6,325 bases of DNA from an uncultured Chitinophagaceae bacterium (lineage in GTDB: Bacteria; Bacteroidota; Bacteroidia; Chitinophagales; Chitinophagaceae), in contig CAMPGT010000232.1 in assembly GCA_946885665.1 (NCBI GenBank), positions 1 to 6,325 on the forward strand, in the 5' to 3' direction. Under the pieces are notes generated by a model. The model saw only the letters and a program-made list of their open reading frames with translations, did no database searches and was not told the origin of the DNA. The position numbers and the translations under genes were made by a program. Below, one piece after another: positions 1-6,325 of this stretch (position 1 is its first letter; each line of letters starts with the position of its first letter).

Positions 1-259
1 GCAATGGCTGGACGCGCTGGTCGCGAGCTGGCCTGCCAACCGCACCCTGTTCTTCGCCTACGAAGCAGGCGGCGAACCGCTGAGCATCGACGCCGTGACG
101 GGACCCGCGGCGATTCTCATCGGCCCCGAAGGCGATTTCACGTCAACCGAAATTTCTTTCGCCACACAAAACGGGTTTGTTCCCGTCGCGCTCGGTCCCA
201 CGCGCCTGCGCACCGAAACTGCAGGTGTTTACGCCGCCACTGTTTTGCAAAGCAAGTAA
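1..259 (+). CDS. rsmE: RsmE, 16S rRNA (uracil-1498-N3) methyltransferase, C-terminal fragment
   Basis: The 5' end is cut by the window edge; the first whole codon is at base 2, and 85 residues precede the TAA at 257-259. RsmE is a cytoplasmic SPOUT-class enzyme that methylates N3 of U1498 in 16S rRNA using S-adenosylmethionine. The fragment carries the two knot signatures that bind the cofactor: IGPEGDF at fragment residues 40-46 (the family usually has IGPEGGF, so one Gly is Asp here) and LGPTRLRTETAG at 64-75, followed by the usual short alanine-rich tail. Full-length members are about 230-250 residues, so roughly the last third is present. The reading frame is intact and ends where the family normally ends, so this is an edge truncation and not a pseudogene. 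The gene lies on the same strand as comM, 132 bases upstream of it. Confidence 0.93.
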   Translation, partial: QWLDALVASWPANRTLFFAYEAGGEPLSIDAVTGPAAILIGPEGDFTSTEISFATQNGFVPVALGPTRLRTETAGVYAATVLQSK

Positions 260-301
260 TTTCAGCTTTTCGTTTCCGGGTTTAAACACCGCCGCGCTTA
301 T

Positions 302-333
302 GTTTTTTCATCTTTTTTTGAGGATGAAAAAAC
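302..333 (+). repeat. 11-bp A/T-rich inverted repeat in the rsmE-comM spacer (possible weak terminator)
   Basis: Arms 302-312 (GTTTTTTCATC) and 323-333 (GATGAAAAAAC) are perfect complements around a 10-base spacer of seven T and GAG. The surrounding spacer (260-391) is strongly T-rich on the + strand, with further T runs near 343-366. The position just after rsmE suggests a transcription end or pause signal for rsmE. However, the stem has only three G:C pairs and no uninterrupted T run directly follows it, so a terminator role is inference. The rest of the spacer shows no convincing Bacteroidota promoter (TTTG then TAnnTTTG at about 19-base spacing). Confidence 0.45.
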
Positions 334-391
334 TGTCTCTCCTCCGTTTTCTTCCCATTTTTTTTCTCCGCCGCCGTAGTTTCTTTGCTCC

Positions 392-1936
392 ATGATGCTG
401 GTTAAAACATTTGGAAGTGCAGTATATGGAGTCGAGGCGATTACAATTACAATTGAGGTGAACGTGATGCCCGGAAGTAATTATTACATCGTGGGGCTTG
501 CCGATAATTCAATAAAAGAAAGTATTCAGCGCATCGAGTCGGCGTTTAAAACAAACAACTATCACATGCCGCGCACGAAGCTTATCATTAACCTGGCGCC
601 GGCGGACATAAAAAAGAGTGGAGCTGCTTTCGACCTGCCCATAGCCATCGGAATACTTGCGGCTTCCGAGCAATTGGAGAATGCGGGCAGGTTGTCCGAC
701 TACGTGATCATGGGCGAACTGAATCTTGACGGCAGCATTCATCCCATACGGGGCGCCCTTCCCATTGCGATTACCAGTTGGAACGATAAGTTCAAAGGAT
801 TGATATTGCCGATCCAGAATTCACGCGAAGCAGGCATGGTGAATAACATTAAGGTGTACGCGGTGTCTCACCTTAAACAGGTGGTCGAGTTTTTTAAAGA
901 TGAGGCGTCGCTCGACCCTGTACTTGTCGACACACGCGAAGAATTTCTGCACTCGCAGTCAACTTTCGATGTTGATTTTGATGATGTGAAAGGGCAGGCA
1001 AATATTAAACGATCACTCGAAATTGCGGCGGCGGGCGGGCACAATGTTATATTGATTGGGCCGCCCGGAGCCGGAAAAACGATGCTGGCGAAACGGCTAC
1101 CCACGATATGTCCGCCACTGTCGCTGAAGGAAGCACTGGAAACCACGAAGATTCATTCGGTTGCCGGCAAATTGCCGCCCGGCTCGGGGTTGATCGCCAA
1201 ACGACCCTTCCGTACGCCCCATCACACCATCAGCGATGTGGCACTGGTGGGCGGTGGCAGTAATCCGCAACCTGGCGAAATTTCTCTTGCACATAACGGC
1301 GTTCTTTTCCTGGACGAGTTGCCGGAGTTCAAAACAGCCGTCCTGGAAGTTTTACGGCAGCCACTCGAAGAAAGGAGGGTTACCATTTCGCGGGCCAGGA
1401 TATCGATAGAGTTTCCCGCAAACTTTATGCTGGTGGCATCCATGAATCCCTGTCCTTGCGGGTATTTCAATCACCCCGAAAAAGAATGTACCTGTGTGCC
1501 GGGCACCGTCCAAAAATATCTCAACAAAATATCGGGTCCGCTGCTCGACCGCATAGACCTTCACGTTGAAGTAACACCAGTGAGTTATAGTGAATTAACC
1601 GACCGCACGCGCAGGGCATCTTCGGAGGAAATAAGAAGCAGGGTGATGGCCGCAAGGGCGGTGCAGGAAGAGCGATATCGTGAGCATCATGATATTTATT
1701 GCAATGCGATGATCACGCCGAACCTATTGTCTGAATGCTGTAAAATAGATATAGTAGGAAGCAACCTTTTAAAAAACGCCATGGCAAAATTGAACCTGTC
1801 GGCGCGCGCTTACGACAGAATATTAAAGGTGAGCCGAACGATTGCAGACCTGGAAACCTCCGGTTCCATCCAACCCCAGCATATAGCCGAAGCCATCCAA
1901 TACAGGAGCCTCGACAGGGAAGGGTGGGCCGGATAA
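392..1936 (+). CDS. comM: ComM/YifB family Mg-chelatase-like AAA+ ATPase
   Basis: This complete 514-residue cytoplasmic protein has the family's usual length. It has an N-terminal ChlI-like domain (about residues 20-145), a central Mg-chelatase AAA+ ATPase domain (about 193-397) and a C-terminal Mg-chelatase helical domain (about 405-505). Visible motifs are Walker A GPPGAGKT (223-230), Walker B VLFLDE (304-309), sensor-1 Asn352 in VASMNP, a Cys cluster CPC...CTC (C354, C356, C366, C368) that is typical of YifB/ComM and may bind metal, LLDRIDLH with Arg387 as likely arginine finger, and a sensor-2 type Arg472 in LSARAYDR. Studied ComM proteins are hexameric helicases that promote branch migration of incoming DNA during natural transformation. 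Two ATG codons are adjacent (392 and 395); the second gives MLVKTFGSAVYGV, the more usual family start, so the true start may be 395. No Shine-Dalgarno sequence is evident. The gene converges on the - strand operon. Confidence 0.95.
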   Translation: MMLVKTFGSAVYGVEAITITIEVNVMPGSNYYIVGLADNSIKESIQRIESAFKTNNYHMPRTKLIINLAPADIKKSGAAFDLPIAIGILAASEQLENAGRLSDYVIMGELNLDGSIHPIRGALPIAITSWNDKFKGLILPIQNSREAGMVNNIKVYAVSHLKQVVEFFKDEASLDPVLVDTREEFLHSQSTFDVDFDDVKGQANIKRSLEIAAAGGHNVILIGPPGAGKTMLAKRLPTICPPLSLKEALETTKIHSVAGKLPPGSGLIAKRPFRTPHHTISDVALVGGGSNPQPGEISLAHNGVLFLDELPEFKTAVLEVLRQPLEERRVTISRARISIEFPANFMLVASMNPCPCGYFNHPEKECTCVPGTVQKYLNKISGPLLDRIDLHVEVTPVSYSELTDRTRRASSEEIRSRVMAARAVQEERYREHHDIYCNAMITPNLLSECCKIDIVGSNLLKNAMAKLNLSARAYDRILKVSRTIADLETSGSIQPQHIAEAIQYRSLDREGWAG

Positions 1937-2037
1937 CACGAAAGAAACCCTTGTACGAATACAGAAAATGAATTGCAAAGAGCAAGACAGTATTAGATCA
2001 TTACCAGCGGCACCGTCTTTCGCATCGCAAACCAAAT

Positions 2038-2070
2038 AAAAAAAGATCGCAACCTGTTCGGCCACGATCT
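2038..2070 (-). terminator. Intrinsic terminator of the sus/enolase/RraA operon
   Basis: Read on the - strand, AGATCG (2070-2065) pairs with CGATCT (2049-2044). The stem continues inward through three G:T wobbles and two C:G pairs to a 5-base GAACA loop, giving about 11 paired positions. The 3' arm runs straight into a T tract (2044-2038). It lies 25-57 bases beyond the RraA-like stop codon, as expected for the end of this operon. On the + strand the hairpin is not followed by a T run, so it does not obviously end comM. The rest of the 1937-2094 spacer shows no gene or other clear signal. Confidence 0.78.
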
Positions 2071-2094
2071 TCATGTAGAAAAAAACACTACCCC

Positions 2095-3024
2095 CTACTG
2101 TCTTTTGATGTACTGCTCTATTTCTTCCTGCGACACCAATAATTTCTTTGGATGCTTCGACATCCATGTCCTGAACTCGTCCTTCATCTTGTCGGACCAG
2201 TCGCCATGAATTTCGCCGCTGGGGTATTTATTCAGTTGCAACATATACCGCTCAAACGTATCGCGCAGGCGCACCAGTTCAGCATTCTTTACCAGTTCGT
2301 CAATCAAATACGCCGGAACGAAAACAACGCCGTAATCATTGGCAAATACGACATCGCCGGGCAACACAGTCGTGCTGCCAATCCTGATGGGCTTGTTAAT
2401 GGACACAGGCGTCATGTCCTTGATATACGAAGGGTGATGTCCCTTTATCCACGCATTGAAACCGTTCGTTTCCTTCAGTTCCTGCATGTCGCGAATGGAA
2501 CCATAAAAGATTACCCCCTTGCCGGTTTTGGCATAGATGGAATTGCCGAGGCTGGAGCCGATAAGCGTTCCGTCCTTCACTTTACCATACCCGTCGGCCA
2601 CATAAATATCTCCTTTGGTGAGGATGTCTATGGGCCAGATGTTGATGCCGCCTTTCTGCGAGCGACCCTCTGCTTTACCTTCTGCCTTTACGATACTATC
2701 CAGGTCGGGGCGCGAGGGAGTAAACTGTGCGGTCACCACGCGGCCCGTCATCACCTCGCCCGGTTTCAAAATGATCCAGTTACCTTCCACCTGGTTGTGA
2801 AATCCCTTGTTATACAAAAAGCCCCACACCTGCTCGAGCGTACATTCCTTCAGGCTTTCCAGCGCCTGGTCGGATACTTTTGGACGGCCGTCCGCAAAGC
2901 GTTCGCCTTTCCATCGTGATGTGAGCTCCTTTACATATTCAGGAGTGGCGCCTACGGTCTGTGCCTCCGCAAATGCGCACGACAGCCAGAGCGCCCCTGA
3001 AAGAAGAAAGATTTTTTTGATCAT
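2095..3024 (-). CDS. Secreted RraA-family protein (HMG/CHA aldolase-like fold)
   Basis: This 309-residue protein starts with a Sec signal peptide (MIKK, a hydrophobic stretch at about residues 5-19, cleavage likely near AFA or AEA at 17-21), so it is probably periplasmic. Cys16 lacks a proper lipobox, so a lipoprotein is less likely. The RraA core spans about residues 70-235. It holds GDIYVADGYGKVKDGTLIG (138-156), in place of the family's GDVVVxDxxG segment, and FYGSIRDMQEL (173-183). R178, D179 and E182 match the R-D-X2-E/D motif of metal-dependent class II pyruvate aldolases and oxaloacetate decarboxylases of this fold. As I recall it, E. coli RraA, an RNase E inhibitor, has R-Q there, so this protein looks like an enzyme and not an RNase regulator. 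It is nearly twice the size of E. coli RraA (about 160 residues), with about 50 extra mature residues before the core and a charged, probably helical, 70-residue tail. Last gene of the operon, 71 bases after the enolase-family gene. Family call strong; reaction and substrate unknown. Confidence 0.85.
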   Translation of the reverse strand: MIKKIFLLSGALWLSCAFAEAQTVGATPEYVKELTSRWKGERFADGRPKVSDQALESLKECTLEQVWGFLYNKGFHNQVEGNWIILKPGEVMTGRVVTAQFTPSRPDLDSIVKAEGKAEGRSQKGGINIWPIDILTKGDIYVADGYGKVKDGTLIGSSLGNSIYAKTGKGVIFYGSIRDMQELKETNGFNAWIKGHHPSYIKDMTPVSINKPIRIGSTTVLPGDVVFANDYGVVFVPAYLIDELVKNAELVRLRDTFERYMLQLNKYPSGEIHGDWSDKMKDEFRTWMSKHPKKLLVSQEEIEQYIKRQ

Positions 3025-3052
3025 CGATTTTGTGTGTTTTTATTTTAATGAT

Positions 3053-3082
3053 CCGCAGGGTCTCTTTCGAAAAACCCTGCGG
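3053..3082 (-). repeat. Intercistronic GC-rich hairpin between the enolase-family and RraA-like genes
   Basis: Perfect 9-base arms CCGCAGGGT (3053-3061) and ACCCTGCGG (3074-3082) surround a 12-base spacer containing TTTCGAAA. The hairpin sits inside the 71-base gap between the enolase-family stop and the RraA-like start. On the - strand transcript it is followed by ATCATTAAAATAAAAA, not a U tract, so it is not a standard intrinsic terminator. It could stabilise the upstream mRNA end, act as a processing site or lower expression of the last gene; the sequence alone does not decide between these. Confidence 0.6.
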
Positions 3083-3095
3083 GAACATAATTTCA

Positions 3096-4580
3096 TCAGC
3101 TATACGTCCTGTCATGCGAGTGTCTTTCGTCCCACATCGGTGTGGGGGCGAAGTAACTCTTGTCTGTAGCATGCAGGTGCTGCTTCACCACCTCATCATT
3201 CAATTCAATGCCCAGACCGGGGGCTGTCAATGGCAGGTTCGCAAATCCTTTCTCGATCAGCTTTCTTCCATCGGTGGTCTTCACCAGGCTTTCCCAATAC
3301 TTCACGTCTACGGAGTGGTGCTCGAGTGCGAGGAAGTTCTGTGTAGCGGCAGCGCAATGCACATTCGCCATGAAAGAAATCGGAGTGCCGGCCTGGTGCA
3401 TCGCCATGGCAATGCCGTATTCTTCGGCAAAATCGCCGATGCGCTTTGTTTCCAGCAAGCCGCCCGAAGAGGCCAGGTCGGGATGTATAATATCCACTGC
3501 TCTCTCCGTAATCAGTTTTCTGAAGCCGTCCAGCAGATATATATCTTCTCCTGTCAGCGTGGGTGTTTCTATTGCTTCGCTGATGGTTTTCCATTGTTCG
3601 GTGTATTGCCAGGGAACGACGTCTTCGAGCCAGGCCAGCCTGTATTTTTCGAGCGCCTTGCCCAGCCTGATGCCGTTGTTGAGGTCGAAGTGACCGTAGT
3701 GATCCGTCGATAACGGTACATCATAACCGATAATGGCGCGTACATTCTCAACGATCTTGGCAAGTTCCTCGAGGCCCTTGTCGGTGATTTGTATTTGTGT
3801 GAACGGGTGCATGGTGTTACCATAGCTCATGTAGTTCGACTGGTCGCCCCATTGGTTGAGGTTACCCCTCGAATCTTCCCAGAATTTAGAGTTGACCACC
3901 GTGCCGGGTTTTCCTTTCAGCTCGCCGATAGACACGTCCATCTTGAGCCAGGTGTAGCCCTGGTCTTCCATACGGTATTTCACTAATTTCTTTTGTTCTT
4001 CAACCGAGCCTGCTTCGGGAGTGTCTGCGTACAGCCTCACCTTGTCGCGATATCTTCCGCCCAGCAATTGCCAGCAGGGCACATTGTAAGCCTTTCCGCA
4101 AATGTCCCACAGCGCCATTTCTATGGCACACACACCGCCGGCCTGTCGCGCAGGCCCGCCAAATTGCTTGATTGATTTGAACAGCATTTCAACATTGCAG
4201 GGATTTTTGCCGAGGATGCGGCTCTTCAGCATCAGCGCGTACTTTTCGTCGGCGCCGTCCCTCACTTCTCCTAATCCGTATATTCCCTGGTTGGTGTCTA
4301 TCCTGATCATCGCGGTACGGCCCATTACAGAGGTTACCGCGTACCGCAGGTCGGTTATCTTAAGGTCCGACGGCGCCGAATAACGGCTTACGTTGGATGT
4401 GCTTTGCGCCACCAAATCTTCTATGGGAGAGAATAAGAAGGCTCCGCCGAGACTTATTCCCCCAAGTGCTGATTTCTTGAAAAAGTTCCGCCGGCTGTTT
4501 TCCTTTGGCGGTTGCGTTTCCGCAGCAGAGTCAGGTTCCTTAAGCCCTAGTTTGGTTGCATATTTCTGTGAAGGCGTCAT
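3096..4580 (-). CDS. Tat-exported mandelate racemase/muconate lactonizing enzyme family protein (enolase superfamily, probable acid-sugar dehydratase)
   Basis: This complete 494-residue protein carries a twin-arginine signal: SRRNFFKKSALGG at 29-41, then a hydrophobic stretch to about 51 and VAQS at 57-60. It is probably exported folded to the periplasm. An enolase N-terminal capping domain (about 73-180) precedes the barrel domain. Likely metal ligands are D293 (STDHYGH), E319 (AWLED) and E345 (LTGED); the base dyad is H395 (MAMHQAG) with D368 (HPDLASSGG). Spacings 293-319-345-368-395 (26, 26, 23, 27) equal those of mandelate racemase D195-E221-E247-D270-H297. The KxK motif on strand 2 is KMD (213-215), so the second lysine base is missing. 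Between KMD and D293 there are about 50 residues more than in mandelate racemase. These features favour one-base chemistry such as dehydration of an acid sugar, but racemase or epimerase activity is not excluded. No other ATG precedes the Tat motif, so the start at 4580 is firm. It follows the SusD-like gene by 65 bases in the same operon. Confidence 0.9.
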   Translation of the reverse strand: MTPSQKYATKLGLKEPDSAAETQPPKENSRRNFFKKSALGGISLGGAFLFSPIEDLVAQSTSNVSRYSAPSDLKITDLRYAVTSVMGRTAMIRIDTNQGIYGLGEVRDGADEKYALMLKSRILGKNPCNVEMLFKSIKQFGGPARQAGGVCAIEMALWDICGKAYNVPCWQLLGGRYRDKVRLYADTPEAGSVEEQKKLVKYRMEDQGYTWLKMDVSIGELKGKPGTVVNSKFWEDSRGNLNQWGDQSNYMSYGNTMHPFTQIQITDKGLEELAKIVENVRAIIGYDVPLSTDHYGHFDLNNGIRLGKALEKYRLAWLEDVVPWQYTEQWKTISEAIETPTLTGEDIYLLDGFRKLITERAVDIIHPDLASSGGLLETKRIGDFAEEYGIAMAMHQAGTPISFMANVHCAAATQNFLALEHHSVDVKYWESLVKTTDGRKLIEKGFANLPLTAPGLGIELNDEVVKQHLHATDKSYFAPTPMWDERHSHDRTYS

Positions 4581-4645
4581 GATAAAAAATTGTGTTTTAC
4601 GTGAAAGAATAATTGCAAAAACTCTATAAGATACTGATAAGTTGT

Positions 4646-6178
4646 TTATGGAGTGTCCCAGAATATCCTGGTCGCGAGGTCATCCGCTCCCTGCCGGGCC
4701 ACCGCCGCATTGTAATTATCGGTGTTTACCGACTTCTCTCTTACGGGGTAGGTTAGCCGGTGAATGAAATCGCCTTTCACCGATGCGTCGGCCCCGGGGT
4801 ACGGGTTGGGCGCAAGCGCCGGGTACCCGCTTCTCCTGAAATTGGCCCATGCTTCCGAACCATTGAGGAAGGAAGCGACCCAGTATTGCGTGTTGATCTG
4901 CTCCAGCGCGGTACCGGCATTAAAAGGATGAGCCGTAAGATAATCATTCTGGTCACCCGAAGAGATGACTGCCGATTCATCGAACTGTGCCATCTGGTCC
5001 ATGTGTCCGCGTACGCCTGCATTGTAATAATCGGCCGCACTGCCGCTTATCCATCCGCGCTGTGCCGCCTCGGCCAGCAGCAATTGCGTTTGTGCATAGG
5101 TGATGAAAAATTCCGGGGCGTCGATTTTTCCCAATGTACGCCTGTTCAGTTGCGAGTATTTGAAGGCAGAACCGATCTTTCCGGGAAAGCCGGGCGCCGT
5201 GGAGATGGTGGATTCGTTATAACCATAAGGCATGCCTTCCTGGTTGGCGGGATCAGTGTCGGCAGCGCCCGCTTCATCCAGCGGCGCCGATGGTGTTTCA
5301 TATTTCACGGCAATGTATTGCAGGCGCGGATCATCGGTCGTTTTCAGGTAATCAATAAACGGCCCGCCCAGGTACACATTTCCTCTTTCCGTTCCCTGGA
5401 AGAAGTTGGCATTGGGGTGATTGAAAGTGCTGCTGAAAGGGAACCACGCATTATCGTCGTTCGATTCCATCACGCCGCCATTGGCCGGGTCAACCGCAAT
5501 GGCAACATTTTCCTGTGCCTTTGCAGGATCCACCTTCGTATACCGCATTGCAATGCGCAACAGTAACGAATTGCCGAGCTTCTTCCATTTGGCAATGTCG
5601 CCCTGGTAAAACAAGTCGCCGCTTTCGATAGATTTTCCGGCGTCGAGTGCAGCGGTCGCTTCCCTTACCTCTTTCAGCAGGTCGTCGTAAATCGCATTCT
5701 GGTCGTCGTATTCCGGTAAATTGATCTCAGTGATGAACGCCTGGCCCGCATTAAAATAGGGCACATCGCCGTAGGTATCCACCAGCACCTGGAAAACGTA
5801 AGCTTTCCAGATCCTTGCCATGTTGTACAGGTTGCTGCGCGCGGCATCGTCTTTTGTTTGGTTGATCACATCCACCAAAAAGCGCACAGGGCTATTGTAG
5901 AGATTGTTGAAGGCGACATTCGTATTGGGATCGTACACAATATTGTGGTTGCCCCCTTCCAGCACGCCGGTGTAGGGCGTGATGATCTGCTGCACAATTT
6001 CTGATTGGTAGTGGAAGGTTTGAATGGCAGACGTGTATTGCGCATTCGAGAATAAATACCCGGGATCGAGTGTTGTGGGTAATATCGGGTTTACGTTCAC
6101 CTCTTCAAAATCCTTGTCGCATGCAGCCATTCCTGTTAAAAGGGAGGCCGCGAATAATATCTTTATTATACTCTTCAT
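4646..6178 (-). CDS. SusD/RagB-family outer-membrane lipoprotein (SusD-like_2 type)
   Basis: This complete 510-residue protein is the glycan- or nutrient-binding partner of the upstream SusC-like transporter, acting as a lid on the outer face of the outer membrane. The lipoprotein signal runs over residues 1-20, with lipobox MAAC and Cys20 as the lipidation site. The following DKDFEE resembles the acidic/Lys export signal that sends Bacteroidota lipoproteins to the cell surface. The mature start, EEVNVNP...LDPGYLFSNAQ (25-47), is characteristic of the SusD-like_2 subgroup. Other family landmarks are VDTYGDVPYF (133-142), GDIAKWKKLGNSLLLRIAMR (193-212), ITYAQTQLLLAEAAQRGW (359-376), SEAWANFRRSGYP (441-453) and a tail with RLTYPVREKSVN (474-485). 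The length is normal. The start lies 20 bases after the susC stop, which indicates co-transcription. The ligand cannot be read from sequence, but downstream genes point to an acid-sugar-containing compound. Confidence 0.94.
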   Translation of the reverse strand: MKSIIKILFAASLLTGMAACDKDFEEVNVNPILPTTLDPGYLFSNAQYTSAIQTFHYQSEIVQQIITPYTGVLEGGNHNIVYDPNTNVAFNNLYNSPVRFLVDVINQTKDDAARSNLYNMARIWKAYVFQVLVDTYGDVPYFNAGQAFITEINLPEYDDQNAIYDDLLKEVREATAALDAGKSIESGDLFYQGDIAKWKKLGNSLLLRIAMRYTKVDPAKAQENVAIAVDPANGGVMESNDDNAWFPFSSTFNHPNANFFQGTERGNVYLGGPFIDYLKTTDDPRLQYIAVKYETPSAPLDEAGAADTDPANQEGMPYGYNESTISTAPGFPGKIGSAFKYSQLNRRTLGKIDAPEFFITYAQTQLLLAEAAQRGWISGSAADYYNAGVRGHMDQMAQFDESAVISSGDQNDYLTAHPFNAGTALEQINTQYWVASFLNGSEAWANFRRSGYPALAPNPYPGADASVKGDFIHRLTYPVREKSVNTDNYNAAVARQGADDLATRIFWDTP

Positions 6179-6198
6179 AAAATATTTGTTTATGCTGA

Positions 6199-6325
6199 TT
6201 ATAACCTGAAATTCAAATTCAAACCATAGCTGCGTGTCGTGGGCAGCGTGTGCGTTTCAATTCCCTGCAGGTTGTCTGATGAAGATACCTGCGCCTCGGG
6301 ATCGAGGTTGTCGATGTATTTTTTG
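6199..6325 (-). CDS. SusC/RagA-family TonB-dependent outer-membrane transporter, C-terminal fragment
   Basis: Only the last 41 residues and the stop (6199-6201) are inside the window; the gene continues past base 6325. The end, THTLPTTRSYGLNLNFRL, has the SusC-family terminal pattern: a P-x-T-R-S-Y-G segment leading into a final amphipathic beta strand that ends near an aromatic residue, as needed for barrel insertion. Such proteins are about 1000 residues long and import SusD-bound ligands across the outer membrane with TonB energy. Its place 20 bases before the SusD-like start is the classical susC-susD order. The call rests on this short tail plus the neighbour. Confidence 0.88.
   Translation of the reverse strand, partial: KKYIDNLDPEAQVSSSDNLQGIETHTLPTTRSYGLNLNFRL

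Follow-up and report, generated by a model that had tools for sequence, protein, structure and literature searches.

Gene content of the locus

The window, a stretch of 6,325 nucleotides from an uncultured Chitinophagaceae bacterium (contig CAMPGT010000232.1), carries a minus-strand run from 6325 to 2095 in which the tail of a SusC gene is followed by a SusD lipoprotein, an enolase-superfamily enzyme, here called EA, and an RraA-fold protein; successive genes are 20, 65 and 71 nt apart (Table 1). Comparison with related genomes shows that EA and RraA are a real conserved unit, both members of which carry export signals. The first-pass annotation had described four consecutive genes whose products are all predicted to leave the cytoplasm, and our results agree on both points: the coordinates and gaps are exact, and the export signals, predicted by eye, are kept in relatives. 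SusD carries MKSIIKILFAASLLTGMAAC, which holds the lipobox, the SRRNFFK of EA is a signal for twin-arginine translocation (Tat), and the N-terminus of RraA is of the Sec type. Genes were called as longest open reading frames, so their starts are often placed too far upstream.

No Pfam family was matched by the 41-residue SusC tail, which is named SusC because of its place before SusD; a TonB plug domain is present in the SusC of the relative L026, and the SusC-SusD order is common among relatives. The terminator proposed at the end of the run is harder to judge, since a hairpin of 13 pairs followed by a T-rich tail does lie at 2072-2042, but such sites numbered 7 in the scan against 4.9 +/- 2.5 in shuffled sequences, and only the length and place of this hairpin therefore speak for it. 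The four genes that are complete in the window showed no glycoside hydrolase, lyase or sulfatase in a Pfam scan, as had been claimed.

Table 1. Features of the window and their coordinates
Feature	Position	Strand	Basis or remark
SusC-type TonB-dependent porin, C-terminal end (41 residues + stop)	6199..6325	-	frame ends ...SYGLNLNFRL then stop, 20 nt before SusD; gene runs past window edge
SusD-like outer-membrane lipoprotein, 510 aa	4646..6178	-	PF12771 (SusD-like_2) 1.3e-84, PF12741 1.5e-66; lipobox LTGMAAC by eye
EA, Tat-signal enolase-superfamily enzyme (mandelate racemase subgroup), 494 aa, probable sugar-acid dehydratase	3096..4580	-	
EA twin-arginine motif S-R-R-N-F-F-K, residues 29-35	4476..4496	-	sequence; R30 and R31 in 135/135 ungapped EA rows
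EA catalytic span: K213, metal ligands D293/E319/E345, D368-H395 dyad, D-H-Y-G-H 293-297	3396..3944	-	
RraA-fold protein, Sec signal, 309 aa, probable enzyme on 2-keto-3-deoxy acid	2095..3024	-	
RraA motif R178-D179-M-Q-E182	2479..2493	-	RD aligns with RD of 3noj
Terminator-like hairpin closing the run	2042..2072	-	stem of 13 pairs followed by a T-rich tail
YifB-type AAA ATPase, housekeeping gene convergent with the run, outside the system	392..1936	+	TIGR00368 620 bits, cut-off 362

The EA-RraA pair in related genomes

A first scan of GTDB species genomes gave 50 loci. EA was searched for at E <= 1e-100 in Chitinophagaceae and at 1e-150 in Flavobacteriaceae and Cytophagales, names that follow the loci used as centres (L006, L016 and L043), and RraA at 1e-50, with the window protein as query in Chitinophagaceae and the relative L081 in Cytophagales. 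Of the 111 EA places from these searches, 104 were used, mostly as 20 kb, leaving out G723, G763, G801, G819, G822, G727 and G831 (Cytophagales). The 146 EA rows became 140 when identical C-terminal 380 residues were removed, three of them from records outside Bacteroidota (L044, L046, L047), and 129 when the 11 lying at an end were set aside; 184 RraA rows (99 D-type, 36 E/D-type and 49 neither, by the motif described below) gave 176 non-redundant homologues. Clustering left out the short copies L051-L070, and gene labels come from profiles built on the first 71 sources, with Pfam and NCBIfam run on one or two representatives per cluster. Related species are not independent, and the counts are given as x/n, with Fisher values that carry no correction for kinship; genome completeness was not given, and an absence may be an assembly gap.

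The first-pass annotation had made its reading depend above all on the co-occurrence of the enolase and RraA in homologous loci, and the two do co-occur. RraA is at most two genes away from EA in 107/129 loci, and in 84/93 of those at 65% identity or more. At the genome level, RraA was found in 20/20 EA-bearing Chitinophagaceae genomes vs 14/127 others (p 6e-16), with the two genes within about 3 kb in 17/20, and in 52/53 EA-bearing Cytophagales genomes vs 10/238 others (p 4e-46). EA itself is present in 20/147 Chitinophagaceae, 29/397 Flavobacteriaceae and 53/291 Cytophagales genomes, and the pairing may extend beyond Bacteroidota. In the closest example, a metagenome-assembled genome (MAG) of Chitinophagaceae (L001), the enolase, RraA and yifB are 84%, 77% and 75% identical to those of the window and stand in the same order. 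RraA, a carrier and SusC or SusD are all near EA in 45/129 loci. On a tree of EA from 111 loci with RraA nearby, SusCD appears or disappears 25 times or more and the carrier 21 times or more, so the pair has often had its surroundings rebuilt.

The carrier belongs to the BASS family of sodium symporters. Its best NCBIfam scores are with a BASS subfamily and with PanS, the ketopantoate carrier, and neither reaches cut-off; in other loci it is replaced by an MFS protein that resembles the subfamily of D-galactonate transporters (262 bits against a cut-off of 395). Many loci also carry a second Tat enolase, EB, of about 425 aa and 28-35% identical to EA, which RraA directly adjoins in 35/42 cases. 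In a Chloroflexi MAG (L047:10001-14416), one strand holds a relative of EA together with an EB-like enolase and an RraA of family PF03737. Other neighbours include a pyrroloquinoline quinone (PQQ) dehydrogenase with cytochrome c, a PfkB kinase resembling KDG kinases, a KDPG/KHG aldolase (PRK07114, 366 bits, cut-off 275), a dehydratase of the IlvD/Edd type close to L-arabinonate dehydratase (836 bits against a cut-off of 882), UxuA, a gluconokinase-type FGGY kinase (below cut-off), FecR/sigma pairs and DUF4440. The 90 operon genes left without a profile label form 63 clusters, and among the 29 representatives scanned there was one sulfatase, within the matches listed (25/51 families), so that glycan-degrading enzymes appear rare; L008 has a GH3 gene at a greater distance. 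This company suggests that the neighbourhood of EA is one of sugar-acid and keto-acid metabolism. In L033 (6322-9815), three consecutive genes of the UxuA (mannonate dehydratase) family with Tat-like N-termini stand between SusD and EA, and the one copy scanned is above the PRK03906 cut-off. A small DUF4440 protein with an N-terminal signal is frequent in the operons (L081:9721-10146, L016:12489-12956 and 20 further loci).

Following RraA genes that are not linked to EA leads to loci that combine an exported ammonia lyase of the DgaE type with RidA, a deacetylase and mostly BASS. The DgaE-like copy scanned reaches 167 bits with TIGR01437 (cut-off 385); the motif SGGKxxRGPQ is found in 9/10 of these proteins and a Tat-like start in 9/10, the tenth being clipped by the end of its locus. 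RidA also has a Tat-like start, the deacetylase-type amidohydrolase reaches 436 bits with NF006689 (cut-off 371), and some of these loci add a gluconolactonase (SMP-30) and a dehydrogenase of the sorbosone type with cytochrome c. The set looks like a periplasmic route for N-acetylglucosaminate or glucosaminate. It stands directly behind SusCD in L082, L191 and L193, the last of which shows no BASS, and one opposite-strand frame intervenes in L192. RraA is found in 28/28 DgaE-bearing Cytophagales genomes, with DgaE and RraA about 18 kb apart and other genes between them in L190 and L194, and within about 6 kb in 10/13 DgaE-bearing cases in Chitinophagaceae. Locations of the set are L081:179-10146, L082:5098-14998, L191:2184-16501, L192 and L193.

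Proposed periplasmic sugar-acid chemistry and its alternatives

The reading that we favour, with moderate confidence, is that the locus codes for a sugar-acid module of the outer membrane and periplasm, in which EA would form a 2-keto-3-deoxy acid and RraA would act next. The ligand would be an aldonate or a related acid sugar, either free or as part of a small conjugate, presumably brought into the periplasm by SusCD. Tat-exported EA would take the proton beside the carboxylate and eliminate water, a reaction suggested by its family, its conserved metal site and His-Asp dyad, and its neighbours. Exported RraA would then act on the keto acid in the same compartment, as the tight pairing and a second route that shares RraA both suggest. 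Its likeliest reaction would be a cleavage like that of class II aldolases, to pyruvate and an aldehyde, followed in likelihood by a dehydration/decarboxylation like that of FlDet. The relatives probably move the product across the inner membrane with the BASS keto-acid symporter or the D-galactonate-type MFS carrier; among the genes at 1-6,325, no carrier was seen. The sequential periplasmic route put forward in the first-pass annotation is therefore well supported in outline by the pair, its export signals, its recurrence and its gene company, while both reactions, aldol cleavage included, the substrate and the localisation are predictions.

EA matches MR_MLE_C (PF13378, 1.7e-44) and MR_MLE_N (PF02746, 9.7e-12), the barrel and capping domains, and with both domains, the metal triad and the His-Asp dyad it belongs to the mandelate racemase subgroup. 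K213, D293, E319, E345 and D368 are kept in 140/140 EA proteins and H395 in 139/140, with one gap; the twin Arg is present in 135/135 rows with residues there, 5 further rows being gapped. The roles of these residues as metal ligands and His-Asp dyad are assigned from alignment to 2qq6 and from the general features of the family. Since the Lys, the triad and the dyad are found in both EA and EB, both should abstract a proton next to a carboxylate. A His two residues past the first metal ligand, which acts as a catalytic acid in classic acid-sugar dehydratases, is present in 41/42 EB, which keeps the classic D-M-H-G-R and reaches 245 bits with the galactonate dehydratase model PRK14017 (cut-off 311), whereas EA carries D-H-Y-G-H. 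EA probably differs from EB in its substrate or its acid catalyst.

The RraA product of the window has the RraA-like fold by its Pfam match (2.2e-18), but at 53 bits with TIGR02798 (cut-off 304.5) it falls outside the HMG/CHA aldolase equivalog. An N-terminal hydrophobic stretch is present in 175/176 homologues, by a crude hydropathy test that also passes 16/23 FGGY kinases and 12/31 short-chain dehydrogenases, but only 2/15 KdgK, 1/13 KdpgA, 0/10 IlvD and 0/7 aldehyde dehydrogenases. The motif of the family is D-X20-R-D or G-X20-R-D-X2-E/D. Two motifs for metal binding and catalysis have been described in the RraA / HMG-CHA aldolase family (PMC5065237). RD is found in 175/176 homologues, of which 97 are D-type, 34 are E/D-type, with an acid after RD only, and 45 have neither acid. 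The window protein reads S157-X20-R178-D179-X2-E182, so that RD and E are present with S where the motif has G, and E182 is kept in 8/8 RraA of the closest subtype. The R-D-X2-E motif of the first-pass annotation is thus there in the window, but an acid in that place alone is found in just the 34 E/D-type homologues. Such RraA proteins are often in tandem with a second RraA (L012, L020, L023, L071, L072, L120, L146, L147); the window has one.

The best evidence that RraA acts on a 2-keto-3-deoxy acid comes from the DgaE loci. Dehydration of aldonates and deamination of 2-amino-2-deoxy-aldonates lead to the same class of product, the 2-keto-3-deoxy acids, and here two unrelated exported enzymes precede one kind of exported RraA and one kind of carrier.

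Several results weigh against the favoured reading. Two residues after the first metal ligand, EA most commonly has Tyr (102 of 140), Phe (26), Trp (6) or Leu (4), and lacks the His of galactonate/gluconate-type dehydratases; after the second metal ligand it has D, not E, in 140/140, unlike EB and 2qq6. It reaches 184 bits with the galactonate dehydratase model NF010624 (cut-off 311) and reaches the cut-off of none of the 11 NCBIfam models that it matches. Both points weaken the acid-sugar dehydration suggested in the first-pass annotation. No RraA was called within two genes of EA in 22/129 loci, an upper bound, since the RraA profile overlooked at least one RraA-family gene (L047). The order SusC-SusD-EA-RraA recurs in 26/140 loci (SusC-SusD-RraA-EA in 16/140), but the set of the relatives is larger: a BASS or MFS carrier is within four genes of EA in 63/129 loci and absent in 66/129, SusC or SusD is within four genes in only 73/129, and L001 has no SusCD beside its pair. 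Both candidate metal-binding acids are absent from 45/176 RraA, so aldolase chemistry is not general in the family, and PF01081 aldolase genes are present in 17/17 Chitinophagaceae genomes tested, so a periplasmic aldolase is not required. An argument from the absence of other aldolases was dropped on this last account, and a search with PF07071 was silent, its own controls included, and carries no information.

It is possible, though we give it clearly less weight, that EA forms the periplasmic 2-keto-3-deoxy acid and RraA dehydrates and decarboxylates, tautomerises or isomerises it, or that the keto acid is imported through BASS or MFS and then phosphorylated and split in the cytoplasm by KDG kinase and KDPG aldolase. 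This explanation overlaps with the favoured reading, which covers either RraA reaction, so the two are not exclusive. Against an aldol step, FlDet, a member of the RraA family, turns 2-keto-3-deoxy-D-glucarate into alpha-ketoglutaric semialdehyde (PMC8563752). The MFS carrier is of the D-galactonate type, and KdgK/KdpgA genes lie within seven genes of EA in 17/140 loci, 15 with only acid-less RraA nearby, L023 with one of each and L100 with no RraA called; they are near EA in 0/71 loci with acid-bearing RraA only. The resulting link to RraA without both acids (15/38 vs 0/71 loci, Fisher 1.5e-8, two mixed loci omitted) comes down on the EA tree to 3 independent pairs (sign-test median p 0.5) and may be a habit of one clade, and our reading was not rested on it. 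UxuA beside KdgK can account for the KdgK/KdpgA genes in several loci, and the window RraA retains its acid E182. Among the loci whose RraA lacks both acids, a pattern of EB-RraA or else KdgK/KdpgA was not significant (KdgK/KdpgA in 2/9 with EB vs 13/29 without, p 0.27; tree pairs median p 1).

As a member of the mandelate racemase subgroup, EA could instead be an epimerase, a cycloisomerase of lactones or anhydro-sugars, or a lyase that opens glycosides, with RraA acting on another kind of acid; this is improbable, as EB with its classic motif shares operons and RraA partner with EA, 5olc was tied with other subgroup members, and the carriers and kinases fit keto-deoxy acids. Loose co-localisation, in which EA and RraA are separate steps on separate ligands in loci that gather sugar genes, could draw on the loci without a called RraA and on 7/62 RraA-bearing Cytophagales genomes that lack EA and DgaE at the thresholds used, but is very unlikely given a pairing that is frequent, tight, duplicated pairwise and retained without SusCD.

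Beyond the module itself, we propose tentatively that Bacteroidota of soil and marine origin could have a complete extracytoplasmic, phosphate-free pathway of the Entner-Doudoroff kind, with exported RraA and BASS as the shared core for varied front ends. SusCD would import a sugar or sugar acid, which an exported PQQ or sorbosone-type dehydrogenase and a lactonase would oxidise; an exported enolase-type dehydratase or, for amino sugars, an exported deacetylase with a DgaE-type ammonia lyase and RidA would yield the 2-keto-3-deoxy acid; RraA would split it in the periplasm to pyruvate and an aldehyde, and BASS would take up the keto acid. Sugar-acid dehydration and aldol cleavage are normally placed in the cytoplasm. 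A recurrent enzyme pair with export signals, tied to SusCD on the outside and to a keto-acid symporter on the inside, would shift these reactions to the periplasm in common Bacteroidota and account for SusCD loci that have no glycan-degrading enzymes. Such a pair would also suggest a role for many proteins named just 'mandelate racemase' or 'RraA family', names for which 8,000/8,000 and 7,861/8,000 scored candidates were homologous, counted without regard to export.

Comparison with known systems

Each enzyme family is known, and the exported combination linked to SusCD and BASS was not found in the literature searched. That search, which covered few subscription papers and no bioRxiv preprints, returned nothing that joins mandelate racemase and SusD, with or without RraA, nor, in the same scope, RraA and polysaccharide utilization loci. 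The closest system is the oxidative 4-deoxy-L-erythro-5-hexoseulose uronate (DEHU) pathway FlDet/FlRed/FlDeg of Flavobacterium sp. UMI-01 (PMC8563752), where, as proposed for the window, an RraA-family enzyme of Bacteroidota acts on a 2-keto-3-deoxy sugar acid. In the available passages of that paper FlDet is a characterised RraA-family dehydratase/decarboxylase of 237 aa, purified from cell extract, with alpha-ketoglutaric semialdehyde as its product and no enolase partner; the words 'periplasm' and 'signal peptide' are absent from this text, whereas the window RraA has a Sec signal. The HMG/CHA aldolase (3noj) belongs to a pathway for the degradation of aromatics (PMC5065237), and the window RraA is 19% identical to it in structural alignment.

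With the galactonate/gluconate dehydratases (PRK14017, 3rr1) EA has in common the two-domain fold, the metal triad and the His-Asp dyad, but it differs from them in its Tat signal, in DHYGH for D-x-H-G-R and in its score below the curated cut-off. The DgaE gene sets, whose usual partner is presumably an aldolase, offer the other comparison: in relatives an exported DgaE-like enzyme takes the place of EA ahead of exported RraA and BASS of the same kinds, although the known DgaE acts, by its NCBIfam name, on D-glucosaminate-6-phosphate and the exported copy is below the cut-off of that model, TIGR01437.

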